Below, piece after piece: positions 21,733 through 39,572 of a stretch of 64,000 nucleotides of DNA; position 1 is the stretch's first letter, and every line of letters starts with the position of its first letter. The stretch lies in assembly GCF_001399755.1 (NCBI RefSeq), contig NZ_LJCP01000014.1, forward strand, positions 62,001 through 126,000, given 5' to 3'. The position numbers were made by a program, and so were the translations under genes. This stretch comes from Thiohalorhabdus denitrificans. Lineage in GTDB: Bacteria; Pseudomonadota; Gammaproteobacteria; Thiohalorhabdales; Thiohalorhabdaceae. The notes beneath the pieces were generated by a model, which had not been told where the DNA came from, ran no database searches, and worked only from the letters and a program-made list of their open reading frames with translations.

Positions 21733-21765
21733 GACCCGGGGCCCCGATCCTGCCGAGCCGCGGCT

Positions 21766-22146: not shown

Positions 22147-23390
22147 CGCACCACCAGCGACCAGACGGTCACCGGGCGCAGGGGGCTCCAGCCGCTGAAG
22201 CCGCCCAGGGGCTCGGCGCGGTCCACCGCCAGCCGGGTAAGCTGCCCCCCCAGGCGCTCCCGCGCCGCCGCCAGCACGGCATCCCCTTCCACGGTGACGC
22301 TGTTGGCCACCAGGCGTCCGCCGGGACGCAGGGCTTGCCGGCAGCGCTCCACGAGCCCGGGCGTGGTCAGGCCGCCGCCGATGAATACCGCATCGGGCGC
22401 CGGCAGCCCTTCCAGGGCCTCGGGGGCCTTGCCTTCGACGGTCTGCAGGTCCGGAACCCCCAGCTCCCCGGCGTTGGCGGCGATATTCGCAGCCCGCTCC
22501 GGGCGCGGCTCCACCGCCACGGCGCGGTTGGCCGGGTCCGCCAGCATCCACTCGATGGCAATGGCGCCCGAGCCGGCACCGATGTCCCACAGCAGCTCGC
22601 CGGCGCCCGGCGCCAGGTGGGCCAGGGTGACGGCGCGCACCTCCCGCTTGGTGATCTGGCCGTCGTGCGTGAAGGCCTCCTCCGGCCGGCCCGGTGCGCG
22701 GGCCACAGGCCGGGCTTCGGGATCCGCCCGACAGGCCAGGGCGATGGTGTTCAGGTCCGCCACCGTGGCCTCCCCCCAGTCGGCGGCCCGGGCCTCCCGG
22801 CGGCGCTCTTCCGGCCCGCCCATGCGCTCCAGCACGGTCAGGGTGGAGGCGCCGAAGCCGCGCTCCACCAGGCGCCGGGCCAGGGCCGCGGGGGTGGAGC
22901 CGTCCCAGCTGAGAAGCAGCAGGCGCGCACCGTCGTGCAGCCAGGGGTGCACGCGCTCCAGGGCCCGGCCGTGCAGGGACAGGCAGCGGGTCTCCTGCAG
23001 CGGCCATCCCAGTCGCGCCGCGGCCAGGCTGAAGGCCGAAGGCGCCGGATGGGCCACCATCTCCTCCGGCGGCAGGCGGCGGGCCAGGGTGGCGCCGATG
23101 CCGTGCCAGAAGGGGTCGCCGCTGGCCAGGACGCAGACCGGCCGGCCGCGCCGCGCCTCGATCCACGGCAGCGCGTCGGTGAGGGGCGAGGGCCAGGCGA
23201 TGCGCTCCTGCCCGGGAACCTCCGGCACCAGACCCAGATGCCTGTCCCCGCCGAACACGGTTTCCGCCTGCTCTACGGCGGCCCGGGCGGCGGGAGTCAG
23301 CCCCGCCGGACCGTCCTCGCCGAGGCCCACCAGGGTGAGCCACGGTTGCCCATCCCGGGCGGGGCTTTCATCATTACCGGCCTGTGGCAT
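22143..23390 (-). CDS. cobL: Precorrin-6Y C5,15-methyltransferase (decarboxylating)
   Basis: This two-domain enzyme (415 residues) methylates C5 and C15 and decarboxylates the ring-C acetate. The N-terminal CbiE-type domain begins LTLVGLGEDGPAGLT and has the LASGDPFWHGIG loop. The C-terminal CbiT-type domain has ITKREVRA, the SAM loop WDIGAGSGAIAIEWM and FIGGG. I place the start at ATG 23390, preceded by a GGAGAGGGGGAGG tract. Its start codon lies only 34 nt from that of the divergent cobK, so any promoter would overlap cobK. Confidence 0.94.
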   Translation of the reverse strand: MPQAGNDESPARDGQPWLTLVGLGEDGPAGLTPAARAAVEQAETVFGGDRHLGLVPEVPGQERIAWPSPLTDALPWIEARRGRPVCVLASGDPFWHGIGATLARRLPPEEMVAHPAPSAFSLAAARLGWPLQETRCLSLHGRALERVHPWLHDGARLLLLSWDGSTPAALARRLVERGFGASTLTVLERMGGPEERRREARAADWGEATVADLNTIALACRADPEARPVARAPGRPEEAFTHDGQITKREVRAVTLAHLAPGAGELLWDIGAGSGAIAIEWMLADPANRAVAVEPRPERAANIAANAGELGVPDLQTVEGKAPEALEGLPAPDAVFIGGGLTTPGLVERCRQALRPGGRLVANSVTVEGDAVLAAARERLGGQLTRLAVDRAEPLGGFSGWSPLRPVTVWSLVVR

Positions 23391-23424
23391 CGTCCCCTCC
23401 CCCTCTCCATCCGGGAGCGCTTCC

Positions 23425-24189
23425 ATGCAGGTACTGATCCTTGCGGGCACCACCGAGGCCACGGCCCTGGCCCGGCTTCTGGAGGGCCATCCCCGGCTCG
23501 ACGGCACCGTTTCCCTGGCCGGACGCACGGCGCGGCCAGCCCGCTCCAACCTGCCCCAGCGCACCGGAGGCTTCGGCGGGGTGGCGGGGCTGGCGGACTA
23601 CCTGCGCACCAACCGCATGGAAGCCGTGGTGGACGCCACCCACCCCTTCGCCGCCCGCATCAGTACCAACGCGGCCGCCGCGGCGCGGCAGGCCGGCGTT
23701 CCCCTGGCGGCGCTGGAGCGCCCGCCCTGGGAGCCCACCGCAGGGGACCATTGGATCCCGGTGGCCGACCTGGACGCCGCGGCCGAGGCCCTGCATACCC
23801 TCGGCCACCGGGTTCTGGTCACCACCGGGCGCCAGGAGCTGGCCCCCTACGAGCGCGCCCCGGACAAGCACTACGTGATCCGCACCATCGACCCGCCGGA
23901 GCCGCCCCCCGCCCTGCCCGATGCGGCCTACATCCAGGACCGGGGTCCCTTCGACCGGGACGCCGAGGCGGCGCTCATGGACGAGCACGGCATCGAGGTG
24001 CTGGTGACCAAGAACAGCGGCGGCGACGCCACCCGCGGCAAGCTCGACGCCGCCCGCGAGCGCGGCATCCCGGTAATCATGGTGGAGCGCCCGGCCCGCC
24101 CCGAGGGCGTGCCGGTGCACCACGACCCGGCCGCGGCCCTGCAGTGGCTGGAAGACCTCGCCGCCGGCGGTCATTCCGCCTCCTCGTAG
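23425..24189 (+). CDS. cobK: Precorrin-6A reductase
   Basis: This NADPH-dependent reductase (254 residues) turns precorrin-6A into precorrin-6B. It begins MQVLILAGTTEATALARLL, then has the VVDATHPFAARIS motif, VLVTTGRQEL and the C-terminal TKNSGGDATRGKLDAA and VERPARP blocks. ATG at 23425 has GGGAG upstream. It is the only ring-building gene on the plus strand. Its 3' end overlaps that of cobJ by 19 nt on the opposite strand, and its 5' end lies back to back with cobL. Confidence 0.94.
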   Translation: MQVLILAGTTEATALARLLEGHPRLDGTVSLAGRTARPARSNLPQRTGGFGGVAGLADYLRTNRMEAVVDATHPFAARISTNAAAAARQAGVPLAALERPPWEPTAGDHWIPVADLDAAAEALHTLGHRVLVTTGRQELAPYERAPDKHYVIRTIDPPEPPPALPDAAYIQDRGPFDRDAEAALMDEHGIEVLVTKNSGGDATRGKLDAARERGIPVIMVERPARPEGVPVHHDPAAALQWLEDLAAGGHSASS

Positions 24190-24941
24190 TACCGCGGGGT
24201 ATAGACCCGGAGCGTGCCGTCGGGCCGCTGCAGGACCCGGGTGGCCGGGATGCCCACCAGCACCAGGGTGCGCATGTCCGCGCGGGCCGGATCGGCCTCG
24301 GCCAGGGTGGTGACGGTGAGCCGTTCCTGGTCGCCGCGGCCGGCGGCGGTGGCGAAGATCACCGGCGTCTGCGGCGGGTGGACCTCGCCGAGCACCTCCA
24401 GGACCCGGCCCAGCTGCCAGGGCCGGGCGCGGGAGGCGGGGTTGTACAGGGCCATGACCAGCCCCGCCTCGGCCGCCAACCGCACACGCCGCTCCACCAC
24501 CGCCAGGGGCTTGAGGTTGTCCGACAGGGAGATGGCGCAGAAGTCGGCCCCCAGGGGGGCGCCCAGGCGGGCGGCCGCGGCCTGCATGGCCGACACTCCG
24601 GGATGTACGGTGACCTCCACATCCCGCCAGCGGCCCGCCGTGTCCCGATCCACGGCCTCCAGCACCGCCGCCCCCATGGCGAAAACCCCGGGATCCCCGC
24701 CGGAAACCACCGCCACCTTCGCCCCCTCGGCGGCCAGATCCAGGGCGTGGCCAGCCCGGGCAAGCTCTTCCCGGTTGTCCGAGGCGTGGCGGCGCTGGTG
24801 GCCCGCGGCGACCCGGTCCAGATAGGGCCCGTAGCCCACCAGGTCCGTGGCCTGCTCCAGGATTCCGGCGGTCTCCGGGGTCAGCCATTCCGGACCTGCG
24901 GGACCGGTGCCCACCACCGCCACCCAGCCCTCACCGCTCAT
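24171..24941 (-). CDS. cobJ: Precorrin-3B C17-methyltransferase
   Basis: This enzyme (256 residues) methylates C17 and drives ring contraction to precorrin-4. The opening VAVVGTGPAGPEWLTP, the YLDRV segment, VVSGGDPGVFAM and PGVSAMQAAAARLGAPLG are family blocks. It ends with the TPRYYEEAE tail, overlapping convergent cobK. It follows cobI with an 11-nt overlap at the far end of the second riboswitch operon. Confidence 0.94.
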   Translation of the reverse strand: MSGEGWVAVVGTGPAGPEWLTPETAGILEQATDLVGYGPYLDRVAAGHQRRHASDNREELARAGHALDLAAEGAKVAVVSGGDPGVFAMGAAVLEAVDRDTAGRWRDVEVTVHPGVSAMQAAAARLGAPLGADFCAISLSDNLKPLAVVERRVRLAAEAGLVMALYNPASRARPWQLGRVLEVLGEVHPPQTPVIFATAAGRGDQERLTVTTLAEADPARADMRTLVLVGIPATRVLQRPDGTLRVYTPRYYEEAE

Positions 24942-25683
24942 CGGCGCGCACCCCCCGGCCCGGCAGCACGATCAGGGAGAAATAGGGCGCCTTCGCCGGC
25001 GCCTCGGCCAGGGGCATGACCGCCTCGTCGGCCATGCTCGCCTTGGCCACGTACCAAGCCTCCTCGCTGCGCCCCAGCTCCTCCAGCAGGGCGACGATGC
25101 GGTCGCGGTGGCTCCCCACCTTCATGATCACCACCGCATCCGCCCCGCTCAGGGCGGCGCGCAGCTCCGCCTCGGGCAGGGTTCCGGGAATCACTGTCAG
25201 CACGTCGTCGCGCATGGTCAGCGGCTTGGGCAGCTGAGCCGCCGCGGCCAGGGGCGACGGCACGCCGGGGACCACCTCGGTGGGGAAGCGGTCCTTCAAG
25301 CGCAGATAGGCGTGCATGAAGGAACCGTAGAAGAAGGGGTCGCCCTCGTTGAGCACGGCCACGTCGCGCCCGGCCGCCAGGTGCTCGGCCAGCCGCTCCG
25401 CCGACTCGTCGAAGAAGGCCTCGATGCGCTCGCGGTACTCCGGGGAGCCGTGGGGCAGCTCGGTGGTGATCGGATAGACCAGGGGCAGCTCCTCCTGGTC
25501 GGCCTTCAGGTGGGCCTCGGAGATCCGGCGCGCCTGGCCGGCGCCGCCGCGGCGGCAGAAGTGGGCGACCACCGGGCATTCGCCGATGAGGCGGGCGGCC
25601 TTGAGGGTAATCAGCTCCGGGTCGCCGGGGCCGGTGCCGATGCCGTACAGGGTGCCCGGCCGGGCGCTTGGGTCGTTGCTCAT
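24931..25683 (-). CDS. cobI: Precorrin-2 C20-methyltransferase
   Basis: This SAM-dependent enzyme (250 residues) converts precorrin-2 to precorrin-3A, the substrate of CobG. It shows [37 protein letters not shown] and [13 protein letters not shown]. Overlaps of 4 nt with cobH upstream and 11 nt with cobJ downstream place it in a coupled block. The start ATG at 25683 gives [16 protein letters not shown]. Confidence 0.94.
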
Positions 25684-26321
25684 ATACGGTCACTCGCGAG
25701 CGCGTTGACGGCGGCGGCGGTGATGGCGCTGCCGCCGCGCCGCCCATGCACGGTCAGGTACTCCAGCCCCAGCGGGCTTTCCGCCAGGGCCTCCTTGCTC
25801 TCCACGGCTCCCACGAAGCCCACGGGGATGCCGAGCACCGCCGCGGGCCGGGGGGCGCCCTCCTGCAGCATTTCCAGCAGGCGGAACAGCGCCGTGGGGG
25901 CGTTGCCGATGGCCACCACGGCGCCCTCCAGCTGGGGGCGCCACAGCTCCAGCGCCGCGGCCGAGCGGGTGTTGCCCAGCTCCGCCGCCAGGTCCGGTAC
26001 GCGCTCGTCGCGCAGGGTGCAGACCACCGGGTTGTCCGCCGGCAGGCGGGCGCGGGTGATGCCGTGGGCCACCATCTCGCTGTCGCAGAGGATGGGGGCA
26101 CCCGCAGCCAGTGCCGACCGGGCCGACGCGGCGACCCCGGCGGAGAAGCCGATGTCCCCGGGCAGATCGGTCATGCCGCAGGCATGGATCATGCGCACCA
26201 CCGCGGGCACGAGGTCGTCCGGAAACCGATCCAGATTCGCCTCGGCCCGGATGATGGCGAAGGACTCCTCGTAGATGGCCTTGCCGTCACGGATGTAGTC
26301 CGTGGGGCCGCTATCCGCCAT
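25680..26321 (-). CDS. cobH: Precorrin-8X methylmutase
   Basis: This mutase (213 residues) moves the C11 methyl to C12 to give hydrogenobyrinic acid. Typical segments are the IHACGMTDL block with the candidate catalytic His46, [23 protein letters not shown] and [15 protein letters not shown]. The ATG at 26321 gives [13 protein letters not shown]; the longer frame merely runs through the end of cobG. It overlaps cobG by 11 nt and cobI by 4 nt. Confidence 0.95.
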
Positions 26322-27708
26322 GCCCCGCCTCCCTCCGGACCCGGGCGGCCAAGGTGCTTTTGCCCAACCGTTCCATGGTTTTCTCCACACGCTCTCCTTG
26401 TCGTTGTTCGGTCGCCACCACCCGGCCAAGCGCCGCCAGCCAGCGTCGGGCCGCCTCCGGAGCCAGCCCCGTTTGCAGCGGCTCCGCCGCCGAGTCGTCC
26501 GCCACGGTCAGGGCGTAGCCGTCCTCGAGCGCGGTCAGGACCACCGTGGCCGCGGCGGGCTCTCCACAGCCCTTTTCACAGCCGCTCACATGGAGCCGGC
26601 CACCCCGCTCCAGCAGATCGGCCGCTGCATCAACCAAGGTGGGCGCATCCGCCCGGGTGGCCGCTGCGGCCGAATCGCAGCCGGGGGCGCCGATGCAGGC
26701 GCTTACCCTAAGCCGGGGGTCGGCGGGATCACTAATGACACCCATCGCCTCCAGTACCGGAAGGGCGTCCGAACCGGCCCCGGTGACCAGCACCGCCCGC
26801 CACGGGGTAACGCGCAGTGTAGTCCCGGAGCCGGGCTCCACCAGCCCGGCCAGGCCCACCAGCTGGTCGGCACTCAACGCGCCAAAAGGAAAGGCCGCGC
26901 CCACCCAGGCGCCTTGGGGATCGCGGCCAAGGAAATCGCCAGAGGCCGCGGCCGGGCGCCGGGCTACCGGGTCCGCCCCGGATACCGGTTCCAGTCCCGC
27001 CATCCCCTGGAAAGGCTCCGTGCCGAAGCGGTCCACGGCCTCCGCCAACCGCCGGGGCGGCTCGGCCGCGGCCTCGCGGAGGGCGCGGAAACGCTCCAGC
27101 ACCGCCACCGCGGCCGGCACCGCCCCTTCCGCCGACACCCAGCCCAGCACGGCGGCCGAGCGGGCGGTACCGCCCACCGCGACCCGATAGCGGACCCCCG
27201 CCCCGGTGGCGACCGCCTCCAGGCGCACATCGGCGGGCAGGTCATCCAGACGCGCCCGACCGCCGCCGTCCACCACCGCCCCCACCTTGGGCGGCAGCTC
27301 GCGCAGGGCGGGGCTGGCGGTGATGGCCTCCGCCAGGGCTCGGGCAAGGGGACGGACATCCGCCGCCGCTTCCGGATCGCGATCGGCCACGGGGGAGGCC
27401 ACCACATTGCGCACCGCCTCCCGAGCGGGATCCGCGTCCGTCAGGCCGGTCCGCGCCAGCTCCTCCTGGGCGGCCGGCAGGGTCTCCGCCGTGAACCCCC
27501 GCAGCTGGAGGTTGGCCCGGTTGGTCAGCTCCAGGGCGCCGGAGCCGTACTGTCGGGCGACCCGGGCGATGGTGCGGGCCTGCTCGGGATCGAGCCCGCC
27601 GATGGGGTGGCGAAGCCGCAGTAGCAGGCCGTCTCCGGTTGCCATGGGGGCGGCCACGCCGGGGCAGGCCTCGCGAACCCAGGGGCCGGGCTTTTCATTT
27701 TGCATCAT
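26311..27708 (-). CDS. cobG: Precorrin-3B synthase (O2-dependent)
   Basis: This monooxygenase (465 residues) of the sulfite/nitrite reductase family hydroxylates C20 of precorrin-3A and forms the ring-A lactone. It marks the aerobic cobalamin route. The family substrate stretch [13 protein letters not shown] is near residue 60, and the C-terminal Fe-S cluster cysteines are in CIGAPGC and [12 protein letters not shown]. Start is ATG 27708 with GGAAGAGG upstream. A 79-nt gap, the largest inside this operon, separates it from the ABC permease gene upstream. Confidence 0.94.
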
Positions 27709-27787: not shown

Positions 27788-28557
27788 TCAGGCCCGGATG
27801 CGGACGCCTCGCGCCACCAGCCCCCAGGCCAGGCCGCCCACCGCGACGGTGGCCGCCGCCAGGATGCCGAAGGTGACGGTTCCGTCGAAGCCGCCGGTGC
27901 CCAGCAGCCCGTGGCGGAAGCCGGCGATCATGTAGTGCATGGGGTTCGCCGCCGCCACCGTCTGCCACGGTTCATCGAGCCGCTCCACCGGGTAGAACAG
28001 CCCGCCGAGGTAGATGAGCGGGGTTAGCACGAAGGTGGAGATCACCGAGGTGTGGTCGAAGCTGCGGGCGAACAGGCCGTTGAGGAGCCCGGCCAGGGCG
28101 AACAGCAAGGCGCTCGTTATGGCGATCCCCAGCGTGGCCAGCGGATAGTGCACCTGCAGCGAGGTGAACGGCAGCGCCACCGCCAGCACCAGGGCCCCGG
28201 CCAGCAGGCCGCGCAGCACCCCGCCCGTGGCGAACCCCGCCACGATCAGCCAGGCCGGCAGGGGGGCCACCAGCAGCTCCTCGATGTGGCGCTGGAGCCG
28301 GGCCCCGTAGAAGGCCAGGGTGACGTTGCTGTAGGCGTTGGTGACCACCGCCAGGATGATCAGCCCGGGCAGGAGGAAGTCCGCGTAAGGCACCCCACCC
28401 ATGCCGCTCAGCTCGCGCCCCACCAGGTGGCCGAAGATGGTCAGGAAGAGCGCGGCGGTGACCACCGACGGCAGCAGGTTCTGCACCCAGGCACGCAGGA
28501 AGCGGCGGGTCTGCTTCACCACCATACCGCGGTAGGCGTACCAGTAGCGCCGCGCCC

Positions 28558-28561
<4 letters not shown>
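27788..28561 (-). CDS. ABC-2 type exporter permease (YadH-like)
   Basis: This inner-membrane permease (257 residues, six helices) is of the ABC-2/DrrB/NodJ class. The LLAPLPAW loop, TPLIYLGGLFYPVERL and ANPMHYMIAGFRHGLLG are class hallmarks. It overlaps the ATPase gene by 4 nt. The pair lies within the B12 operon between cbiD and cobG, so it should share riboswitch control. Its substrate is unknown; family members export lipids, polysaccharides or drugs, and a corrinoid or metal role is only a guess. Confidence 0.87.
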
Positions 28562-29483
<922 letters not shown>

Positions 29484-29487
<4 letters not shown>

Positions 29488-30629
29488 GGCTGCGCCTCCG
29501 GCTCCCCGGCCGCCTGGCCCACCACCCGACCCCGGCGGTCCACGGCGCAGACCTCCAGCGCGGTGGTGGCGGGCAGCAGGCGCCGGGCCTGGACCCAGGC
29601 CCGGGCGCAGACCCGGTCGGCCAGGGGGAGCCCGGCCTCCTGGCAGGCCGCCAGGGCCTCCATGGCGGTATTGGCATCGGCCACCCGGGCCACCAGCTCC
29701 CCGCCGGCCCCGAGCTGTTCCGCCTCGGCGGCCAGGCCGGCCAGGTCGATGGCGCACTTGCGGCTGTGGGTGTCGAGGTGGCCGTCGGCGAATTTGCTGA
29801 GCTTGCCGAAGCCCGCCATCAGGACCACGGCGGGAATGGGATGCTGGCGCAGGTACTTGAGGGCGGCGCCGAACAGGTCGCCCATCTCGATGAGCGCCAT
29901 GTCGTCGAGGCCGTAGTGGGCCTGCGCCGCGGCCTCGCTCGTCCCCCCGGTGCAGCAGGCCACCCGACCCAGCCCGTTGGCGCGGGCCACGTCGATGGCC
30001 TGGTGGATGGAGGCGATGTAGGCGGAGCAGGAAAAGGGCCGCACGATCCCCGTGGTGCCCAGGATGGAGATGCCGCCTTCGATGCCCAGGCGCGGGTTCA
30101 TGGTGCGCTGGGCGATGCGCTCGCCGCCGTCCACGCCCACGGTGACGGTGAAGCCTCCGGGGTGGCCCAGTTCAGCGGCCACCTCTTGCAAATATTCGGT
30201 AATCATCTGTCGCGGTACGGGATTGATGGCCGGCTCCCCGGGGGGAACCGGCAGGCCGGAGCGGGTGACGGTGCCCACCCCGGCGCCCGCCTGGAAGGCC
30301 ACCCCGCTTTCCGGAGTCGGCACGATCCGCACCCAGACCCGGGCCCCGTGGGTGGCGTCGGGATCGTCTCCGCCGTCCTTGATCACGCCGGCCTCCGCGC
30401 CCCCCTCCACCGCCCGGAGGTCCTGGAGCGGCAGGGTCACCGCCTCGCCCCGGGGCAGGGTCACCGGGACCGGCGTCCGCTGCTCCCCGCCCAGGGCCAG
30501 GCGTGCGGCCGCCGCGGCGGCCGCGGTGGCGCAGACGCCGGTGGTGAGCCCGGTGCGCAGCGGGCCGCCGCCCTCGCGGCTCTCCGGCCGCATGGCGCCC
30601 GCCTGCGGGCCGTCCTCAGGCTCCGGCAT
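29484..30629 (-). CDS. cbiD: CbiD, (cobalt-)precorrin-5B C1-methyltransferase
   Basis: This protein (381 residues) is the anaerobic-type C1-methyltransferase. It opens LRTGLTTGVCATAAAAAAA and contains VTRSGLPVPPGEPAINPVPRQ in shortened family form, SILGTTGIVRPFS and the GFGKLSKFADGHLDTHS block. In the classical aerobic pathway this step is done by CobF, which I do not see here. Its presence beside cobG therefore makes the pathway hybrid. The ATG at 30629 has AAGGAGAGG upstream and overlaps cobA by 14 nt. Confidence 0.94.
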
Positions 30630-31452
30630 CCGCCTCTCCTTCTCCAGCTACCGGCTCGCAGCCGGCGGCCTGGCGCAAACGGACCACCTCGCCCACGATG
30701 AGCAGGGCCGGCGACTGGATCTCCAGGCCCGCCACCCGGCCGGGGAGGTCGCCGAGGGTGCCGGTCACCACCCGCTGCGCGGCCAGGGTGCCCCGCTCCA
30801 CCAGGGCGGCGGGCATGGCCGACGGTGCCCCGGCCTCCACCATCTCCGTGCACACCTTGTCGAGGCCGTGCAGCCCCATGTAGACCACCACGGTCTGCTG
30901 CGGCTGCACCAGGGCGGCCCAATCGAGTTCCGTGCCGCCGTTGCGGCGGTGGGCGGTGACGAACTGGCAGCGATAGGCGTGGTCGCGGTGGGTGAGCGGG
31001 ATGCCGGCATAGGCGGCGCAGCCCCCCGCGGCGGTGATGCCGGGGATGATCCGCACCGGGATGCCTTCGGCGGCCAGGGCCTCAGCCTCCTCGCCGCCGC
31101 GCCCGAAGACGAAGGGATCGCCGCCCTTGAGCCGGACCACATAGTGGCCCTCCCGCGCCCGGGCCACCATCAGGGCGTTGAGCTCCTCCTGCTTGTAGTG
31201 ATGGCGCGCCCGCGCCTTGCCCACGTAGACGCGCTCGGCGTCCGGTTTGGCCAGATCCAGCACCTCCTGCGGGATCAGGCGGTCGTGGAGAACCACCTCC
31301 GCCCGTTGCAGCGCCGCCACCGCATGCAGGGTGAGCAGGCCCGGATCGCCGGGCCCGGCCCCCACCAGATCCACCCGGCCGGCCAGGTCTTCCCCGCTCC
31401 CGGGCACCGCCCGGGAGAGGAGCTCGCGCAGGGAGGGGTCTTGCCCGCTCAT
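30616..31452 (-). CDS. cobA: Uroporphyrinogen-III C-methyltransferase
   Basis: This SUMT enzyme (278 residues) makes precorrin-2 with two SAM-dependent methylations at C2 and C7, and so commits uroporphyrinogen III to corrinoids or siroheme. It has VDLVGAGPGDPGLLTLHA, LKGGDPFVFGRGGEEAEAL and PGITAAGGCAAYAGIPLTHR. It lacks the CysG-type dehydrogenase/chelatase domain. It overlaps cobB by 4 nt and cbiD by 14 nt, so it probably serves B12 synthesis rather than siroheme. Confidence 0.94.
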   Translation of the reverse strand: MSGQDPSLRELLSRAVPGSGEDLAGRVDLVGAGPGDPGLLTLHAVAALQRAEVVLHDRLIPQEVLDLAKPDAERVYVGKARARHHYKQEELNALMVARAREGHYVVRLKGGDPFVFGRGGEEAEALAAEGIPVRIIPGITAAGGCAAYAGIPLTHRDHAYRCQFVTAHRRNGGTELDWAALVQPQQTVVVYMGLHGLDKVCTEMVEAGAPSAMPAALVERGTLAAQRVVTGTLGDLPGRVAGLEIQSPALLIVGEVVRLRQAAGCEPVAGEGEADAGA

Positions 31453-32741
31453 GGCTTGAACAGCTCCGCCACGGCACTCGGATTGGAGGGGAACCAGGCA
31501 TGCAGGTAGGTGGCGGTGAGCCGGCCCTGGCGATAGATGGCCTCCGCAGTGCTTCCTCGGTTCCGGGCCCGGATGCAGTGGGCCACAGGCTCGAGGTTCA
31601 CCTCGGCGCGGCTGTGGTGGAAGGTGTGGCCGCGGATCTCGCCCTCGGGCAGCGGCGCGGCCTGCAGCCCGATGCCCTGCACCCGCTCTTCCAGCTGTGC
31701 CTCACCCGGGAGCAGGCCGGCCATGGGGGCGCGGTGGCCCTGGGCGTCGGCCAGGGTGTCCAGCAAGTAGAGGAAGCCGCCGCACTCGGCCAGGATGGGC
31801 CGTCCGGCCTGGTGATGAGCATGCAGGTCGGCCTTCAGGGCCTGGTTGGCGGTCAGGGTATCCAGGTGCAGCTCCGGGTAGCCCCCGGGCAGCCAGACGG
31901 CGTCCGCCTCGGGCAGGCCCTCGCCGGCCAGCGGCGAGAAGAAGACGAGCTCGGCGCCCATGGCCTCCAGCAGCCGCAGATTGCCGGGATAGAGGAAGGC
32001 GAAGGCGGCGTCCCGGGCGATGGCGATGCGCACGCCGCCCAGCTCCGCCTCGGGCTCCGGCAGGGAGCCCGGCTCGAAGGCCACCGGCTCCGGGAGGCCG
32101 GTCACCTCGGCCTCGGCCACGGCGTTGGCGGCCGCCGCGAGGCGCTGCTCCAGATCGTCGATCTCCTCGGCCTGCACCAGGCCCAGGTGGCGATCAGGCA
32201 GCCCAACCGCCTCGTTACGCGGCACAGCCCCGAAGTAGCGGATCCCCTCCGGAAGTGCCGCACCCAGCATGCGGCCGTGCCCCGCACTGCCCACCCGGTT
32301 TGCGATGACGCCGGCGAAGGGCAGGTCCGGGCGCCAGGTGGCCAAGCCGTTGACCACGGCCCCGAAGGTCTGCGCCATGCCGCTGGCGTCGATGAGGCCC
32401 AGCACCGGAAGGCCAAAGCGCACGGCCAGGTCGGCGCCCGAGGGGTCGCCGTCGAAGAGCCCCATGGAGCCCTCCACCAGGATCAGGTCGGCGGTTTCCG
32501 CGGCGCCATGGAGCATGGCCCGGCAGTCTTCCTCGCCCACCATCCACAGGTGGAGCGGGTCCACCGGATGGCCGCAGGCCTGCTCCAGGATCATGGGGTC
32601 GAGGAAATCGGGCCCCATCTTGAACACGCGCACCGCGCGGCCCTGGTCGCGGTGGTAGCGCGCCAGGGCGGCGGTGACCGTGGTCTTGCCCTGCCCGGAG
32701 GCGGGCGCGGCGATGAACACCGCCGGGCAGGTGGCGCTCAC
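31449..32741 (-). CDS. cobB: Hydrogenobyrinic/cobyrinic acid a,c-diamide synthase
   Basis: This glutamine- and ATP-dependent amidase (430 residues) amidates the a and c side chains before cobalt insertion in the aerobic order. The N-terminal P-loop is APASGQGKTTVTA, with FKMGPDFLDP and VEGSMGLFDG. The C-terminal glutaminase domain has PGGYPELHL and the catalytic AECGGFLYL. The start GTG at 32741 overlaps the cobO stop as GTGA. Whether cobalt-free or cobalt-bound substrate is used here depends on how the CobN homologue works. Confidence 0.94.
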   Translation of the reverse strand: MSATCPAVFIAAPASGQGKTTVTAALARYHRDQGRAVRVFKMGPDFLDPMILEQACGHPVDPLHLWMVGEEDCRAMLHGAAETADLILVEGSMGLFDGDPSGADLAVRFGLPVLGLIDASGMAQTFGAVVNGLATWRPDLPFAGVIANRVGSAGHGRMLGAALPEGIRYFGAVPRNEAVGLPDRHLGLVQAEEIDDLEQRLAAAANAVAEAEVTGLPEPVAFEPGSLPEPEAELGGVRIAIARDAAFAFLYPGNLRLLEAMGAELVFFSPLAGEGLPEADAVWLPGGYPELHLDTLTANQALKADLHAHHQAGRPILAECGGFLYLLDTLADAQGHRAPMAGLLPGEAQLEERVQGIGLQAAPLPEGEIRGHTFHHSRAEVNLEPVAHCIRARNRGSTAEAIYRQGRLTATYLHAWFPSNPSAVAELFKP

Positions 32742-33343
32742 AGCTCCACCCCCTTCTGCGCTTTCACCCCCGCCTCGAAGGCGTGCTTTTCCTTGCGCAT
32801 GTCCGTGACCGTGTCGGCCACCTCCATGAGGTCCTGGGGCGCACCGCGGCCGGTGATGACCACGTGCTGCATGGAGGGACGCCCGGCCAGGTCCTCGATC
32901 ACCGTGGGCAGGTCGAGGTATTCCTTCTTGAGGGCGATATTCAGCTCGTCGAGCAGCACCAGGCTGACGGACTCGTCCTGCAGCAGCGTCCGCGCCTTCT
33001 CCCAGGCGGCCTCGGCCATCTCCGTGTCCCGCTCCCGGTCCTGGGTCTCCCAGGTGTAGCCCTCGCCCATGACGTGGTAGGTCACGCCGTCGCACTGGCG
33101 GAAGAAGGCCTCCTCGCCGGTGGCGAACTTGCCCTTGATGAACTGCACCACCCCCACCTGCTGGCCGTGCCCCAGGGCCCGGGCCACCATGCCGAAACCG
33201 GCGCTGCTCTTGCCCTTGCCGGTGCCGGTATTGACGATCACCACGCCGCGCTCGTCATTGGCCTGGCCGATGCGGCTGTCCATGATCTCTTTTTTCTTCT
33301 GCATGCGCTCACCGTAGCGGGCGTCGCTCTGACCTTCGCTCAT
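32738..33343 (-). CDS. cobO: Cob(I)yrinic acid a,c-diamide adenosyltransferase (CobA/CobO/BtuR type)
   Basis: This enzyme (201 residues) transfers adenosyl from ATP to the cobalt of cob(I)yrinic acid a,c-diamide or other corrinoids. The P-loop is NTGTGKGKSSAGFG, and VGVVQFIKGKF and LLDELNIAL are family blocks. It is preceded by bluB (4-nt overlap) and followed by cobB (4-nt overlap). It also serves salvage of imported corrinoids from the Btu system. Confidence 0.94.
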   Translation of the reverse strand: MSEGQSDARYGERMQKKKEIMDSRIGQANDERGVVIVNTGTGKGKSSAGFGMVARALGHGQQVGVVQFIKGKFATGEEAFFRQCDGVTYHVMGEGYTWETQDRERDTEMAEAAWEKARTLLQDESVSLVLLDELNIALKKEYLDLPTVIEDLAGRPSMQHVVITGRGAPQDLMEVADTVTDMRKEKHAFEAGVKAQKGVEL

Positions 33344-34029
33344 TTATGGTTTCCTTGCTCAATTTCGGTCGTGGAATCCGGTAGGCCGCCCGGATTGCCC
33401 CAGCTATCGGCGTAGACCAGCTCCTCCAGGGGCTCGCGCTCGGCCCAGCCCTCCTGCTGCAGCATGGGCTCCTCGTAGAAGGCCTCCACATGGCCCAGGC
33501 ACAGCACGGCTACCGGATGGCCGCCCTCGGGCAGCCCCAGGAGGCCGCCCAGGGCCTGCGGATCGAAAAACGAGACCCAGCCCATACCCAGGCCTTCGGC
33601 CCGGGCGGCGAGCCACAGGTTCTGGATGGCGCAGGCCACCGAGGCCAGGTCCATCTCCGGCAGGGTCCGCCGACCGAACACGAACCGCTCCCGGCCGTCG
33701 GCCAGGGCCGCCACCAGCAACTCACCGGCCTCGCGCACGCCTTCTACCTTGAGACGCAGGAATTCCGCCTTGCGCCCGTCCATGGCCTCGGCGGTGCGAC
33801 GGCGCTCCTCTTCAACCAGCCCAGCGATGGCCTCGCGCAGCTCTGGATCGGTGACGCGAATGAACCGCCAGGGTTGCATGAAGCCCACACTGGGCGCCCG
33901 ATGAGCCGCCCCTAGCAACCGCCGCAGCACCGTTGGGTCCACCGGATCCGGGCGAAAATGGCGCATGTCCCGGCGCTGCTCGATGGCGCGGTAGACGGCG
34001 TCGATCTCGGGCTGGGAGAAGGCCGTCAC
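33340..34029 (-). CDS. bluB: 5,6-Dimethylbenzimidazole synthase
   Basis: This flavin-destroying enzyme (229 residues) of the nitroreductase fold cuts FMNH2 with O2 to form the lower ligand of B12. Features are IEQRRDMRHFRPDPVD, the APSVGFMQPWRFI stretch, and GLGMGWVSFFDPQAL. It supports aerobic life and shows that true cobalamin, with DMB, is made. It overlaps the DUF2149 gene and cobO by 4 nt each, linking a chelatase-type module to the lower-ligand gene. Confidence 0.93.
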   Translation of the reverse strand: MTAFSQPEIDAVYRAIEQRRDMRHFRPDPVDPTVLRRLLGAAHRAPSVGFMQPWRFIRVTDPELREAIAGLVEEERRRTAEAMDGRKAEFLRLKVEGVREAGELLVAALADGRERFVFGRRTLPEMDLASVACAIQNLWLAARAEGLGMGWVSFFDPQALGGLLGLPEGGHPVAVLCLGHVEAFYEEPMLQQEGWAEREPLEELVYADSWGNPGGLPDSTTEIEQGNHK

Positions 34030-34340
34030 TCCCCGCCTCCGCCGCCCTTGATCATGATGAGCTTGCCGGTCTCCGGGTCGCGGTAGACCTCGCCCATGGG
34101 CTCGTAGCCGGAGCCGGCGCCGCCCATGCCCTCGGGCACTTCGGGTAGCTCACGCCCCTTGGTGATCTCCTGGTTGCTCAGCTCCTCGAGCGGGGCGTCC
34201 TTGCCCCCCTGGCTGGCGGCCAGGGCGGCGATGAGCCCCACCGCGAACACCAGCATGATGTCCACCAGGTTGGCCATGGGCCCCATGGGCTCGGCATCCG
34301 CCTCGTCGAAGCGGCCCCGGCTCCAGTCACGCCCGGCCAT
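34026..34340 (-). CDS. DUF2149 protein with ExbD-like membrane segment
   Basis: This small membrane protein (104 residues) has one transmembrane segment at about 22-42 that contains LVDIMLV, with Asp27. The same motif with its proton-relay Asp occurs in the ExbD at 214 of this window (LVDVMLV). The periplasmic part is short and ends with EVYRDPETGKLIMIKGG. I chose ATG 34340; the longer frame is a shadow of the exbB-like gene, which it overlaps by 14 nt. It probably forms the stator-partner of that channel and acts on the CobN homologue. The DUF2149 assignment is from recognition of the family and its usual neighbours. Confidence 0.82.
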   Translation of the reverse strand: MAGRDWSRGRFDEADAEPMGPMANLVDIMLVFAVGLIAALAASQGGKDAPLEELSNQEITKGRELPEVPEGMGGAGSGYEPMGEVYRDPETGKLIMIKGGGGGE

Positions 34341-34779
34341 CGCCGGCCTCCAGGGCGTCAAGCAGGGAATCGTACCAGCGTCGGCGCACCCGGCCGAGGA
34401 TGAAGCCGACGATGCCCACCAACAGGCCCATGACGGTGGTATCAAAGGCCACCGTCACCGCTTGGGCGAGCGTCTGCAGCTCGCCGCGCCCAAGGGCGGC
34501 CAGGCCCGGGCCGAGAGGGATGAGCGTTCCCATGAGGCCGAGCATGGGGCCCACCCGGGCGATGAGGTCGGCCCGCTCGATGCGGCGCCGGCCCACCCGG
34601 CCCACCGTACCCCGGTCACCGATCCGGCTTAGGCGAGCCAGGCCGCCGAGGCCCTCGCCCAGAGCCTGTCCCACCTCCCATACCGCCAGGGCCACCAACA
34701 CGGCCAGGGCGGCGAGCACCGGCTCCAGCAGCCAGCTCACGCCGGCGTGGATCCACTGCACCAGGACACCGTCAAACAT
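34327..34779 (-). CDS. MotA/TolQ/ExbB-type proton channel in the cobN operon
   Basis: This inner-membrane protein (150 residues) has three predicted helices at about 12-38, 72-98 and 107-131. The second and third contain ARVGPMLGLMGTLIPLGPGL and TVAFDTTVMGLLVGIVGF, the conserved channel helices of ExbB/TolQ, with threonines lining the pore. It lacks the long cytoplasmic loop of full-length ExbB. It overlaps cobN by 8 nt and the DUF2149 gene by 14 nt. I infer that it supplies proton-motive force to the membrane-anchored CobN homologue. Confidence 0.88.
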   Translation of the reverse strand: MFDGVLVQWIHAGVSWLLEPVLAALAVLVALAVWEVGQALGEGLGGLARLSRIGDRGTVGRVGRRRIERADLIARVGPMLGLMGTLIPLGPGLAALGRGELQTLAQAVTVAFDTTVMGLLVGIVGFILGRVRRRWYDSLLDALEAGDGRA

Positions 34780-37700
34780 TGCTGCCTCCGCTGCGTAGTC
34801 CGCGATAGAAGCCGCCGCCGAGCAGGATCAGGGCCAGTCCGGCCGTGGCCCACAGGTACCAGGGCACGTGGCGATCTCGGGATTGGCTTTCGCCATCGCG
34901 GGCCTCTTTGTTCGATTCCCTGTCGGATTGCCGGCCCTCGCTCCGCTCGACCTGGCGGGCCTGCCCCGATTCGGTGGCCCGTTCGGTCGCGGCGGGGGCC
35001 GCCGCTCCTGCATCCTTCCTTTCGAGCGATTGCGCTTCGGGGGCCTGCTTCACCTCGGCTACCGTTTGCACTGCCTGCCCCTGCTCCTCCGGCTGCTTGC
35101 CGCCGGCGGCTTTCAGCTTCTGGTCCAGGGCCTCGGCCAGATCGTCGCCGATCTGGCCCTTCACGTGGTCGAAAACGGGATGCTTGGGCCGGGTATGGCC
35201 GGAGCCGGGCAGACCGTTTTCCACAACCGCCCGGGCCAGCTCCTCAGCAAGCTCCTGCTGGGTGGCCTGGGAGGCCTCCCAGAAGCCCTTGGCGATGGCC
35301 ACATTCATGATGGCGAGCATGTTGGTGCGCACGTGGGCCCGGTTGCCCTCGACCAGGAATTCGTCCAGGTCCAGATCGTGCTTGTCGTCGAGGTAGACGT
35401 CCTTGACCTCCTGCCACACCCAATCGTCGATCACCGCCGGATTGGTGACCTGCCACCCCCATAGGTGCTCCATGAACTTGGAGCCCATGGTGCGGGCGCC
35501 GCTGTAACCGTGGTCCATTTGGGCCCGGAGCCAGGCGGGGTTGAGGAAGCGGCCGCGCAGCTCCTGCAGCAGGGCGGCCTCCAGGGTCTGCATGCTCGGG
35601 TTTTCCGGATCCGAATGGTCGATGATGCGGCTATCCGGCGCCGCACCGGTGACCTGCTCCACGGCCATGGACAGCCCGCCCAGGTAGTCGAAGGCGTCGT
35701 TGTTGTCCAGCAGCCCGTAGAGGTTGGAGGCCCGGCCCAGATAGGTGCGCTCCACCCGGCCCAGGTTGCGCCGGAAATCGCCGTGGGCGGCCTCGCCGGC
35801 GGCACCGGCGCCATAGGCGTGGCCCATACGGCGCAGGTAGGTGTCCGCCACCTCATCCCGCTTTTCCCAGGAGCCGGAACGCTCCGCCATGCGGTTGACG
35901 CCGGCTCCGTAGCTGCCGGGGGCGTCGCCGTAGACCCGCAGGATGGCTTGGTTGCCGGCGTCGGCCGGCTCGGCTCCCTCTTCCACGCCCCGCCGGGCGT
36001 CGGCCACCCAATGGGCGGCCACCTTATTGCGCTTTAGCGACTCGGTGCCGGCATCGCGCAGCTCGCCCAGGGGCTTCAGGGCCGCCTCCAGCGCCGGGGT
36101 CAGCTCGGGATGCTTCTCCCGGATGGTCTGGCTGGCACCGTCCAGGGCCAGGCGCACGGACTTATCCAGCCAGGCGTTGAGGTTGCCGTAGAGGTCGCGG
36201 AACAGACCGGAGGTGGTGAACACCACGTCACGGCGGTAGCGGCCTTCTTCCAGCGGCCGGCGCTCGATGCCCTCGACGATACCTCGGCTGTTCCACACGG
36301 GCTTAATGCCCAGCATGTCCATGCCGAAGGCCACCATGGCGCCCTCGTCACGCACCGTATCCGAGGCCCACAGCACCACCGCCTCGCTGCCCTGCGGCGG
36401 GCCGTTATCGCCCTCCTTGCGGGCGTCGGCCGCCATTTGCGCGCCCATCTCCCAGCCCACGCGGCTGGGCAACAGGTTGCCGTTCAAGCCGAAGAAGTTA
36501 CGGCCGGTGGGCAGCACCTCGGGGGTGCGGACAGGGTCGTTGCCCTTGCCCGGGGCCACGAATCGACCGTCCAGACCGGCCAGCAGCCCGTCCATCTCGC
36601 GACCTGGCGAGTCGGCCAGGGCCTTGCGCCATTTGTCCTTGATCTCGCCCGCCCCGGCCATGGACTCCAGCATCATCCGCCGCTCCTCATTGGCCCACTC
36701 GGCGCCGAAGATGTGCAGGCCCCGGGGCATGAACTCCTCCTGCATCTCGGTGAGGTGGTGGCCCACCTCGTGCACCAGGAGGTCGCCGCCCACCTCGTCC
36801 AGGCTCAGCTCGGGATTGCCCCGCTCGGCCCGCAGCTCCGACTCCAGCTCGGAGACCATGTCCAGCTCGGCGATCTTGTCGCGGATGCGGTCCAGGGCGC
36901 GCTCACGGGCGGGGGTATTGCCCTGGCCTTCCGCCGACTCGAAGCTCTCCACCAGCCCACGCAGCTCCAAAAGCTGGTCGTACAGGGGCGTGGTGGACAG
37001 CGGCGGCGTGAGGTGGTCCACCATCACCGTCAGGCCACGGCGCTTGGCCTGCAGGCCTTCGCCCACGCCGTCGACGATGTAGGGGTAGACGCCGGGAATG
37101 TCGCCGGCAATGAGCCGCGGATAGTCGGTGTCGGTGAGCCCCACCCGGCGCCGGGGAAGGAACTCGTAGGTGGAGTGCCGGCCCAGGTGGACCAGGGCGT
37201 CCGCGCCGAACTGCGACTTCAGCCAGTGGTAGTAGCCCAGGTACTGGTGCGGCGGCGGCACGGCCAGGTTGGCGTGCAGCAGCTCCTCGTTCACCTCCCA
37301 ACCACGCGGCGGCTGGGGGCCGATCCAGACGTTGCCGAAGCGCAGGCCGGGGATGAGCATGTCGCCGTCGTGGACCATGACCCGCCCCGGGGGCTCACCC
37401 CAGCCGTGCAGGCCCTCGATGCCGGTGTCGCGCAGGCCGTTCACCAGCCTTTGCGCCTGCTCCCAGCTGGCATCGGGCTCCTCGGCGAGCAGGGACTCGT
37501 ATTCGGCGCGCAGCTGGTCCAGCAGGTCCCGGGCACGGGCGGTCGCCGGATGGTCCGCCCCCTCCACCAAGTGGCGCAGATCGCCGTGCATGCGCTCCAG
37601 CAGGTCCCGGCCCAGGTCCAGCCGGCCCGACTCCTCGGCCTCGCGCAGGGTCTCGTGCAGAAAGCCCAGGGGGCCGTCGCGCATCTCGGCACGGATCGGA

Positions 37701-39241
37701 TCGGGCAGCCCGGCGAACCACTCCCGGTACGCCTCCGCCGACAGGGTGGGCACCTCGCTGTGCAGGCGCGCCAGCTCCTCGCGATTCTCGGGCAGGTTCA
37801 CCCCCTGCTCCTGCATGCGCTCCAGCAGGGCCTCGGGGGAGCCGGGCAGCTCGCCGGTCTCGTAACCAGCGTCCCGCATGTTGCGCAGGATGCGCAGCAG
37901 CGAGCGCGGCACGTCCAGGTTGTCGGCGCCGATGTTGTGCCGGCCCGGGGGATGGTTGTAGTAGAGGATGCCGACGCGCTTGTCACTGTTGTCGGTGCGC
38001 CGCAGGCGGATCCAGTTGGCGGCGCGCTCGGCTATGGCGGCCACCTCCCGCTCCACCGGGCGGGTGGTGGCGAAGCGCAGCCCCGTGCGCGGGTCGGTGT
38101 GCGCGGGCTCCGCCGCGGCCAGCACCAGGGGCTGGCTGACGCCCTGCAGCTCGGGCATGCCCACACGGTAGTGGATGGAGTCCTGGGGCAGGCCGTCGGC
38201 GGACATCCGCCATTCGCCCCGGGTGCGGTCGGCGAGGCGGATGCCCTTGAGCACGGGCACGTCCAGCTCCTTCAGGGCCCCGGTCACCGCCTCGCGTCCC
38301 TCGCCGCCGCCCACCACGAAGTCCTGCAGGCTGATTACGGCCCCGAGGTCCGCCGGGGCACTCACCTTGCTCAAGCGCTCCACGGCCTGGCGGCTGGCCG
38401 TGCCCCAGCGCGCCAGCACGGCAAAGCAGGCCGGCCCCCGGGACTCCACCTCCTCGCAAAGGGCGTCCAGAAGGCGGCGCTTGCCGGCGGCGTCGCCGTC
38501 GTCGTAGGCCAGCACCGCCACCGCCGGCTCGCCCTCGGGCAGGTCCAGCTCGTCGGCGGCTACCACCGCGCCGTCGCGGTGGTAGCGCAGCGGGGCTGCC
38601 GGCTGCGGCGGGGCGGCGCTCACCTCCACCCCGCCCTTGCTCAATAGCCAGGCCACCAGGTTGGCGGCGTTGTCGGCGCCGCGCCCCCGCCAGTAGGCCC
38701 GGCCACGGAGCCACTCGGCCTGCTCCGGGTATTCGGCGGCCATCTCTTCCATGAAGGCCAGCGGATCCTCGTCGGCCCCCGGATCGGCGCCGATCACCGC
38801 TTTCGCCTCGCCGGAGAGATCGGCCAGCGGCCGCTCGCCGTCCAGGCGCGACTGGCGCACCAGGGAGCGGGTGCTGCTGACGATAAACACCGGCGCCCCC
38901 TTGGGCGGAGGCGACTGGCGCAGCAGCCGCTTAAGGCGCACGGCGGCATCGCCGAACACCCCGGCCATGAGCACGGCGTCGGCCCCGGCCCACAGCCCGG
39001 CCACCTCGGCGTCGGAGAGGTCCGAGAGCTGGCTCGGGGTCCGCAGCACCACCTCGTGATTGGGATGGTCGTCCAGATAGCGGTGCGCCCCGCCGGCGGC
39101 CATGGCCGCCGAGCGCTCCGAGACGACGCCCACCAGCTTGGCCGCCTGGGCGGAGGCCGCCGGGGCCAGGAGGACGGCTAGCAGGGGAAGAAGGAGTAAG
39201 ACGCTTCGTGCGGCGCGCCACGCCGCATTCGGGAAAGACAT
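34772..39241 (-). CDS. Exported, membrane-anchored CobN-like chelatase
   Basis: This CobN/BchH-family protein has 1489 residues. It has an N-terminal signal peptide (about 1-34, LLLLPLLAVLLAPAASAQA) and a C-terminal anchor (about 1458-1481, WYLWATAGLALILLGGGFY) followed by a basic tail, so the large domain should be periplasmic. Core family blocks are present: LGRHSTYEFLP, GVGEGLQAKRRG, VDHLTPPLS, the DLLVHEVGHHLTEM stretch and SMAVEQVTG. A charged Ala/Glu/Gln-rich linker (about 1375-1455) joins core and anchor. Classical CobN is cytosolic and works with two AAA+ subunits, absent here. Overlapping exbB-like and DUF2149 genes follow. It resembles HmuS-type proteins of Bacteroidota haem operons. 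A cobalamin riboswitch precedes it. Confidence 0.9.
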   Translation of the reverse strand: MSFPNAAWRAARSVLLLLPLLAVLLAPAASAQAAKLVGVVSERSAAMAAGGAHRYLDDHPNHEVVLRTPSQLSDLSDAEVAGLWAGADAVLMAGVFGDAAVRLKRLLRQSPPPKGAPVFIVSSTRSLVRQSRLDGERPLADLSGEAKAVIGADPGADEDPLAFMEEMAAEYPEQAEWLRGRAYWRGRGADNAANLVAWLLSKGGVEVSAAPPQPAAPLRYHRDGAVVAADELDLPEGEPAVAVLAYDDGDAAGKRRLLDALCEEVESRGPACFAVLARWGTASRQAVERLSKVSAPADLGAVISLQDFVVGGGEGREAVTGALKELDVPVLKGIRLADRTRGEWRMSADGLPQDSIHYRVGMPELQGVSQPLVLAAAEPAHTDPRTGLRFATTRPVEREVAAIAERAANWIRLRRTDNSDKRVGILYYNHPPGRHNIGADNLDVPRSLLRILRNMRDAGYETGELPGSPEALLERMQEQGVNLPENREELARLHSEVPTLSAEAYREWFAGLPDPIRAEMRDGPLGFLHETLREAEESGRLDLGRDLLERMHGDLRHLVEGADHPATARARDLLDQLRAEYESLLAEEPDASWEQAQRLVNGLRDTGIEGLHGWGEPPGRVMVHDGDMLIPGLRFGNVWIGPQPPRGWEVNEELLHANLAVPPPHQYLGYYHWLKSQFGADALVHLGRHSTYEFLPRRRVGLTDTDYPRLIAGDIPGVYPYIVDGVGEGLQAKRRGLTVMVDHLTPPLSTTPLYDQLLELRGLVESFESAEGQGNTPARERALDRIRDKIAELDMVSELESELRAERGNPELSLDEVGGDLLVHEVGHHLTEMQEEFMPRGLHIFGAEWANEERRMMLESMAGAGEIKDKWRKALADSPGREMDGLLAGLDGRFVAPGKGNDPVRTPEVLPTGRNFFGLNGNLLPSRVGWEMGAQMAADARKEGDNGPPQGSEAVVLWASDTVRDEGAMVAFGMDMLGIKPVWNSRGIVEGIERRPLEEGRYRRDVVFTTSGLFRDLYGNLNAWLDKSVRLALDGASQTIREKHPELTPALEAALKPLGELRDAGTESLKRNKVAAHWVADARRGVEEGAEPADAGNQAILRVYGDAPGSYGAGVNRMAERSGSWEKRDEVADTYLRRMGHAYGAGAAGEAAHGDFRRNLGRVERTYLGRASNLYGLLDNNDAFDYLGGLSMAVEQVTGAAPDSRIIDHSDPENPSMQTLEAALLQELRGRFLNPAWLRAQMDHGYSGARTMGSKFMEHLWGWQVTNPAVIDDWVWQEVKDVYLDDKHDLDLDEFLVEGNRAHVRTNMLAIMNVAIAKGFWEASQATQQELAEELARAVVENGLPGSGHTRPKHPVFDHVKGQIGDDLAEALDQKLKAAGGKQPEEQGQAVQTVAEVKQAPEAQSLERKDAGAAAPAATERATESGQARQVERSEGRQSDRESNKEARDGESQSRDRHVPWYLWATAGLALILLGGGFYRGLRSGGSNV
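34985..35011. repeat. REP-like element inside cobN coding sequence
   Basis: GGTCGCGGCGGGGGCCGCCG followed by CTCCTGC matches the class A variant at 10949-10975 with about four differences. On the coding strand it encodes part of the alanine-rich linker (GAAAPAATE) between the CobN core and the membrane anchor. Confidence 0.65.
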
Positions 39242-39369
39242 GAGAACTCCGCTGCGCCGGTTCCAGGATCGGGCGATTCCGGGCAGCGCGGGGGAGTCAG
39301 TGACGGGTCAGCGGCTGGAAGGGCCGGCTCCCCGCACGTCGCGCCCCGCGACGCCGTGGGTCAAGCCGC

Positions 39370-39572
39370 TCCAGGCCGGTCTCCGGGCTGACGAGCTGGC
39401 GGCGGGGCCGCCGGACGGTTGCCTTCCCGCGCCCGCAGGCGCAGTGGCCAAAGACCGCCCATCACTCGCTTACCGTTGCGGGGGCAGCGCCGGTTGGGCC
39501 GTGCGGGCCGTCCGGACTTCCCGTTTCACCCCGGCCGCGAGGCTCGGGGAACCTGGAGCAGGTTGGGATTCT
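39370..39572 (-). promoter_or_regulatory. Cobalamin riboswitch (leader of cobN operon)
   Basis: On the minus strand the leader shows CCAGGTTCC (about 39549-39558), AACGGGAAG (near 39519-39528), GCTGCCCCCGCAACGG (39473-39488), GGCCACTGC (near 39442-39449) and the B12 box AGCCCGGAGACCGGCCTG (39372-39389). It closely parallels the btuB riboswitch. About 130 nt of GC-rich leader with several possible hairpins separate it from the cobN ribosome site (CGGAG); no gene is seen there. Confidence 0.95.

Follow-up and report, generated by a model that had tools for sequence, protein, structure and literature searches.

Class I chelatases are taught as cytosolic, ATP-driven machines. Here we describe a riboswitch-controlled gene from Thiohalorhabdus denitrificans whose product, a CobN-type chelatase subunit, is predicted to be exported, and which is followed by genes for an ExbB-type proton channel and a DUF2149 protein. 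The locus lies in a 64,000-nt stretch (assembly GCF_001399755.1, contig NZ_LJCP01000014.1, positions 62,001-126,000), hereafter the window, whose own positions serve as coordinates throughout. On balance, we lean slightly towards reading this system as a periplasmic cobalt chelatase that is coupled to the proton-motive force and acts on metal-free corrins, in salvage and, in this organism, also in de novo synthesis.

Several described systems resemble this locus. HmuS (BtuS2) is encoded in the hmuYRSTUV operon of Bacteroides and Porphyromonas, which includes an ExbB-like gene and a DUF2149 gene (PMC10434189). Like the window CobN as predicted, it is exported, linked to the membrane at its N- and C-terminal ends, partnered by ExbB-like and DUF2149 proteins and adjacent to a TonB receptor (PMC10434189, PMC12583661, PMC13227078). 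However, HmuS is a haem de-chelatase under iron control, has no cob genes beside it, carries His1209 and a Met-rich insertion, and falls outside the B12-type clade described below. An earlier reading of the window from its letters (the original prediction) had drawn a parallel with Bacteroidota haem operons, and the published operon and HmuS bear it out (PMC10434189; PMC12583661). The name BtuS, for a third type of CobN, is credited to Rodionov et al. 2003 in PMC6460266, where the family is presented, much as the window CobN appears here, as predicted periplasmic relatives of CobN distinct from biosynthetic CobN and ChlH. As described there, BtuS is not of the B12-regulated type and is assigned to metalloporphyrin salvage, whereas the window CobN is riboswitch-controlled and the sole chelatase candidate of a cobalt-late pathway.

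Two further loci share parts of the arrangement. The zinc locus PA1922-PA1925 of P. aeruginosa also has a TonB receptor with CobN-like and ExbD-like proteins (PMC4542158), but it is Zur-controlled, and the relatives in the class that we assigned to its type show about 28-30% identity and fall in a clade of their own. The pSZ77 cluster of Trichlorobacter lovleyi places a CobN without CobST beside ExbB, DUF2149, TonB receptors and cob genes (PMC3403914); its CobN is about 32% identical over the aligned parts, lacks the HExGH motif, and has DUF2162 and ExbB-ExbD-TonB alongside. With the late cobaltochelatases CobNST and CobN-ChlID, the window CobN shares the CobN fold, the position in the corrin pathway and the superfamily His, but those enzymes are cytosolic, AAA+ driven and supplied by CobW, and the window system shows none of these features. 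In the literature searched, the coverage of which was incomplete, we found no account of a cobalt-late operon whose only CobN is exported and regulated by B12, and no proposal of proton coupling for cobalt insertion.

A single CobN in a cobalt-late genome

The T. denitrificans genome is 99.9% complete, and its absences are called here from family searches. We found that CobG scores above its curated cut-off and that CobE (CbiG_C), CobK, CobH, CobI, CobJ and CobM are all encoded, while CbiX is absent from the genome. The pathway is the cobalt-late (aerobic) B12 route with CbiD replacing CobF, the same substitution as in Pseudomonas aeruginosa, and a late chelatase is therefore required. Exactly one PF02514 protein is encoded in the genome, namely the window CobN. 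No CobT was found; the best genome match to CobS (35 bits) is a CbbQ-type ATPase, and the best match to ChlI/ChlD reaches 31 bits. The original prediction had found no AAA+ partner within 64 kb, and none was identified either in the window or genome-wide. The original prediction had noted that a further, complete CobNST-type chelatase would remove the need for a biosynthetic role; the genome check for another CobN, cytosolic and accompanied by AAA+ partners, was negative.

The matches to PF01078 and the CobS model were rejected as chelatase partners: those examined were sigma-54, CbbQ or MoxR AAA+ proteins, and the strongest one (L004) is presumed to be ComM-like because of its score, as proteins of the ComM type give such matches in nearly all genomes. 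The genome encodes three CbbQ/NorQ-type AAA+ ATPases (L151, L152, L154), and the AAA_5 matches examined were CbbQ-type.

A genome of the same genus (G121) has a similar inventory with a lone exported CobN, and so has one from another family (G089), which differs only in encoding a CobS/CobT-like pair that is divergent (91 and 53 bits; L144). All four ring-makers of the class with a cytosolic CobN (G279, G295, G364 and G272) possess ChlID-like (287-445 bits) or CobST partners. One other genome (G143; L143) carries CobS (492 bits) and CobT (80 bits), yet neither a cytosolic CobN nor ring synthesis.

Operon context and B12 control

The reading frames of cobN and exbB overlap by 8 nt and those of exbB and the DUF2149 gene by 14 nt, exactly as the original prediction had given them together with the coordinates; the operon extends past the end that it had set, through bluB, cobO, cobB, cobA, cbiD, an ABC-2 transporter pair, cobG and the ring methylases. 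The B12 control that it had proposed was matched by an RF00174 riboswitch before cobN (Table 1). Moreover, six loci were tested, drawn from Gammaproteobacteria, Nitrospirota and Nitrospinota, and at each of them a cobalamin riboswitch was present 5' of cobN or of a btuB/cobN unit. A gene repressed by B12 would be expected to make or import B12, not to dismantle it.

The ABC-2 pair lies between cbiD and cobG in 6/6 ring-makers with an exported CobN (the window, G121, G089 and three Thioalkalivibrio), among which its members are 66-92% identical. It was found in none of the four ring-makers with a cytosolic CobN, and the permease matched no other locus fetched. CobW, recognised by motif, stands beside the cytosolic CobN in 3/3 complete loci and in no exported-type locus. 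In the late route, CobW is described as the chaperone that handles cobalt in the cytosol (PMC7689651, PMC10206600). The presence of the ABC-2 pair and the absence of CobW fit an extracytoplasmic insertion of cobalt, because the ring would then have to be exported and a cytosolic chaperone would not be needed. That the pair is a corrin exporter is a fair possibility, although a slightly doubtful one.

Predicted topology, motifs and fold of CobN

The hydrophobic N-terminus immediately precedes the first conserved strand (LVGVVSERSAA), and this is kept clade-wide wherever the start is readable, in members from Pseudomonadota, Nitrospirota, Nitrospinota and Myxococcota. Positive residues follow the single predicted C-terminal transmembrane helix, which puts the body of CobN outside the inner membrane. 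The signal peptide, C-terminal anchor and exported placement of the original prediction are thus upheld at the level of sequence, and a periplasmic, ExbB-coupled placement is very likely.

In addition to the superfamily His (H689), the cleft residues are conserved in the window CobN. The HExGH motif was found in 79 of 80 clade members vs none of ten canonical, zinc-type, Trichlorobacter and Runella CobNs, and two conserved Cys residues ten apart (262 and 272) are absent from the other CobN types compared; the motif may form a metal site, and the Cys pair a disulfide in the periplasm. The position of HmuS H1209 is occupied by Asp, a residue also present there in two of three cytosolic CobNs that were compared. 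The loop GRxSN(L/I)Y is similar to that of HmuS and of the zinc-type CobN. The window CobN scores under the cut-off of every NCBIfam CobN/BchH equivalog model, and phmmer searches with HmuS left its head domain (Met79/His254 haem ligands, head/neck) unaligned.

An AlphaFold model of residues 140-1339 (mean predicted local distance difference test score 79) was used for a fold search. The matches were CobN (9fpc, Z 47.6 over 376 residues; 7c6o, Z 47.3 over 885 residues), ChlH (Z about 44) and HmuS (Z about 36), a ranking that indicates only that the modelled CobN core is intact, because Z varies with domain posture.

The ExbB and DUF2149 partners

The motifs of the second and third transmembrane helices of ExbB, GPMLGLMGTLIPLG and AFDTTVMGL, are nearly invariant in the relatives, and its Thr residues T85, T114 and T115 are invariant or nearly so. 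An ExbB search against plasmids gave no matches. In its AlphaFold model, DUF2149 consists of a single transmembrane helix (residues 20-44) and a small hairpin; its short, conserved periplasmic tail ends GYEPMGEVYRDPETGKLIMI, and it carries no peptidoglycan-binding domain. Asp27 in the transmembrane motif NLVDIMLVF is Asp in 37/37 relatives, and this motif is similar to PFIDIMLVL of ExbD over a short stretch. We take this likeness as one of motif and claim no homology.

The B12-type clade and joint loss of anchor and motor

We analysed ten CobNs (from the window and the class sample) and 80 loci from a genome-wide scan with 281 confirmed relatives, and all share one build. In the tree, the B12-type CobNs form one clade (support 100) apart from the canonical CobN and the zinc-locus type; the core fragments of HmuS and ChlH sat on long branches with unsure placement, which was not used. 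The window clade and Thioalkalivibrio, both of which make the ring, branch at separate places within the B12-type clade.

For 77 complete loci there was enough downstream sequence to score the anchor and the motor. ExbB follows CobN in 62 of them, with DUF2149 adjoining, in Gammaproteobacteria, Nitrospirota, Nitrospinota and Myxococcota; this grouping is not chance, and it is consistent with the proton-channel partnership that the original prediction had proposed. The C-terminal transmembrane helix and ExbB are both present in 61/77 and both missing in 15/77, the one exception (L086) being a shortened frame with ExbB and no clear helix. All 15 loci without anchor and motor belong to Marinobacter, in which anchor, ExbB and DUF2149 are gone together and the signal peptide is kept. 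The Fisher p of 5e-15 for the association is nominal and overstates it, because the 15 Marinobacter cases represent one evolutionary loss.

Salvage context of the relatives

Seven of the 11 class genomes with an exported CobN are 97-100% complete but have no CbiC/CobH and hence do not make the ring, and many relatives in such genomes adjoin btuB and btuFCD. In several Marinobacter loci the order is btuB-cobN-btuF-btuC-btuD-cobB-cobO-cobQ with btuF directly after cobN, which places CobN functionally between outer-membrane uptake and inner-membrane import. CobB and CobQ act on non-amidated corrin acids, and both are retained within the cobN cluster of several ring-less genomes; the imported substrate may therefore be a compound like (hydrogeno)byrinic acid. 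Chelatase annotations are known in bacteria without ring genes, and cbiA/cobB is present in 46% of precursor salvagers (Shelton et al., PMC6461909).

Several of these findings go beyond the original prediction: the wider B12-type clade and its link to salvage, the ABC-2 pair, the lack of CobW, and the way in which anchor and motor disappear together. As to that prediction, location, motor, B12 control and the HmuS parallel stood, while its mechanism is still one that we infer.

In Methylohalomonas lacus (L053) and at L046:11615-12289, a stand-alone CbiE-type C5-methyltransferase gene stands between exbB and the DUF2149 gene in a genome without CbiC/CobH. Azotobacter chroococcum has an exported CobN on a genome contig (L105) and a canonical-type CobN on a plasmid (H28/H29), and would be a convenient species for separating the roles of the two.

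Proposed mechanism and alternatives

We propose that the body of the exported CobN lies on the periplasmic side, held by its one C-terminal helix, and that the ExbB-type proton channel with DUF2149 as an ExbD-like rod would drive it instead of CobST or ChlID, the cytosolic partners that use ATP. Cobalt would thereby enter a metal-free corrin on the periplasmic side. For most relatives, this corrin would be imported by BtuB and the product passed via BtuFCD to CobB, CobO and CobQ, so that corrins lacking amidation are salvaged. Members of the window clade and Thioalkalivibrio make the ring themselves by the cobalt-late route, and there the exported CobN would be the late cobaltochelatase of de novo synthesis, to which the ABC-2 pair would deliver the metal-free corrin in the periplasm. 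Direction of the reaction, exact substrate and exporter role are offered as hypotheses. That CobN acts on a corrin within B12 metabolism is highly probable. The original prediction had left open whether cobalt is inserted or removed or another tetrapyrrole stripped; insertion into a corrin is rather likely, because of the riboswitch, the downstream CobB, CobO, CobQ and BtuFCD, the lack of a metal permease in the cluster and the position of CobN as sole cobalt-late chelatase. A part as the late chelatase of de novo synthesis in T. denitrificans is somewhat likely. Only tentatively do we suggest the full cycle, in which a dedicated ABC-2 transporter would export the corrin once it is complete but still metal-free, the chelatase would metallate it in the periplasm at the expense of the proton-motive force and not of ATP, and the product would be re-imported; in ring-less neighbours, the same enzyme would allow the use of metal-free corrins that other cells release.

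Several points weigh against this proposal. The chelatase activity, localisation and proton coupling of the complex are all deduced from sequence. Export and re-import of a ring intermediate would be costly, and we know of no precedent. Exported CobN occurs in Marinobacter without motor or anchor, so that the motor is not always needed. An hhalign comparison of DUF2149 and ExbD pairs D27 with the ExbD Asp, but as a weak match (probability 2.75%). The ABC-2 and CobW contrasts come from few lineages and represent no more than two independent events, perhaps one; the ring block could also have moved as a unit. Furthermore, HmuS, the best-characterised exported relative, removes metal, as observed in vitro for the membrane fraction with NADH and without ATP, and the part played there by the ExbB and DUF2149 partners is only presumed (PMC12583661).

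The exported CobN could instead serve salvage only, by exchanging, repairing or removing the metal of imported corrinoids in the periplasm, while an unrecognised cytosolic enzyme inserts cobalt de novo. The ring-less genomes and their adjoining btuB and btuFCD, the plasmid-borne cytosolic-type CobN of A. chroococcum and the de-chelatase HmuS would all suit this explanation; we nevertheless hold it to be unlikely, as the searches of the window genome (G000) and of G121 turned up no further family of chelatase, cobN stands first in a ring operon whose reading frames overlap, removal of cobalt from B12 under a B12-repressed switch makes little sense, and no metal permease accompanies the genes, in contrast to the Fe and Ni types. 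It is less likely still that CobN is a corrinoid binder that hands its substrate from BtuB to BtuF, with ExbB and DUF2149 powering transport and not chelation. Transport was proposed for the related T. lovleyi cluster (PMC3403914) and the Marinobacter gene order fits it, but the superfamily active-site His and the cleft residues are retained, cobB, cobO and cobQ lie downstream, the cluster has no TonB-like part, and HmuS shows that an exported relative can be a real (de)chelatase.

The HmuS-like architecture and the GRxSN(L/I)Y loop, similar to that of HmuS and the zinc type, would agree with a de-chelatase of haem or another porphyrin that lies in a B12 operon incidentally. This is very improbable given the cobalamin riboswitches, the cob genes on either side, the separate clade, the Asp in place of His1209 and a fold nearer to CobN than to HmuS; a plain HmuS homologue was dropped on the cob operon context and the same Asp. 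Finally, the exported location of CobN is a prediction, and the enzyme might be cytosolic, its N-terminus having been misread and its anchor being peripheral, but the hydrophobic N-terminus right before the first conserved strand across four phyla and the positive residues past the C-terminal helix, which put the body outside, make this scarcely credible, and cytosolic misannotation was dropped.

If the periplasmic cobalt insertion that we propose is true, a central step of B12 synthesis would have shifted to another compartment and another energy source, a new way to finish B12. It would account for the missing CobW and CobST/ChlID in ring-makers with an exported CobN, and would predict a new kind of corrin exchange, in which Marinobacter, Halomonas, Nitrospira and others take up corrins that carry neither metal nor amidation; their ring-less genomes would now be annotated as those of salvagers with a stray cobN.

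Feature coordinates and further observations

Table 1. Features of the cobN locus and its surroundings in window positions.
Feature	Position	Strand	Basis or remark
AdoCbl (cobalamin) riboswitch	39357..39571	-	Rfam RF00174, 81.7 bits; ~116 nt 5' of cobN start
Exported CobN-type chelatase subunit (predicted), 1489 aa	34772..39241	-	PF02514, 852 bits
Signal peptide, ~residues 1-33	39143..39241	-	predicted from sequence
H689, superfamily-wide active-site His (= HmuS H538)	37175..37177	-	alignment with HmuS, ChlH, CobN
HExGH motif, residues 824-828	36758..36772	-	clade-only; candidate metal site
C-terminal transmembrane anchor, ~residues 1461-1479	34805..34861	-	hydropathy
ExbB/TolQ/MotA-type proton channel, 150 aa	34327..34779	-	PF01618, 38.6 bits (cut-off 22.9)
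DUF2149 protein, 104 aa	34026..34340	-	PF09919, 33.8 bits
bluB	33340..34029	-	TIGR02476, 269 bits; overlaps DUF2149 gene by 4 nt
cobO adenosyltransferase	32738..33343	-	PF02572
cobB (a,c-diamide synthase), start approximate	31449..32741	-	NF002204, 424 bits
cobA (SUMT)	30616..31452	-	TIGR01469, 296 bits
cbiD	29484..30629	-	TIGR00312, 409 bits
ABC-2 transporter ATPase, YadG/DrrA-like	28558..29487	-	PF00005; 4-nt overlaps with cbiD and permease
ABC-2 transporter permease, YadH-like	27788..28561	-	PF01061; NF011648, 299 bits
cobG (O2-dependent precorrin-3B synthase), cobalt-late marker	26311..27708	-	TIGR02435, 323 bits, cut-off 234.8
cobH, cobI, cobJ, cbiET, cobE, cobM	20809..26429	-	cobE = CbiG_C, about 21766-22143
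cobK (precorrin-6A reductase), opposite strand	about 23428..24189	+	PF02571, 243 bits
Second cobalamin riboswitch (20693-20445), then btuB, btuF, btuC, btuD	15696..20693	-	riboswitch search, tblastn relatives

Just 5' of the first riboswitch and on the same strand (39664-40800) lie a DUF1622 gene and a gene for a NicO-like putative metal permease, which might supply cobalt; no relatives of these two genes were seen beside cobN at other loci. An open reading frame at 4595-5077 has a third-position GC of 0.61, far below its neighbours, and has by eye the look of a REP-associated transposase. On plasmid pRUNSL01 of Runella slithyformis (L150), genes for a TonB receptor, a urease-accessory-like permease, ExbB, DUF2149 and CobN lie in a hyp/Ni-hydrogenase cluster, which suggests a nickel version of the same machine.

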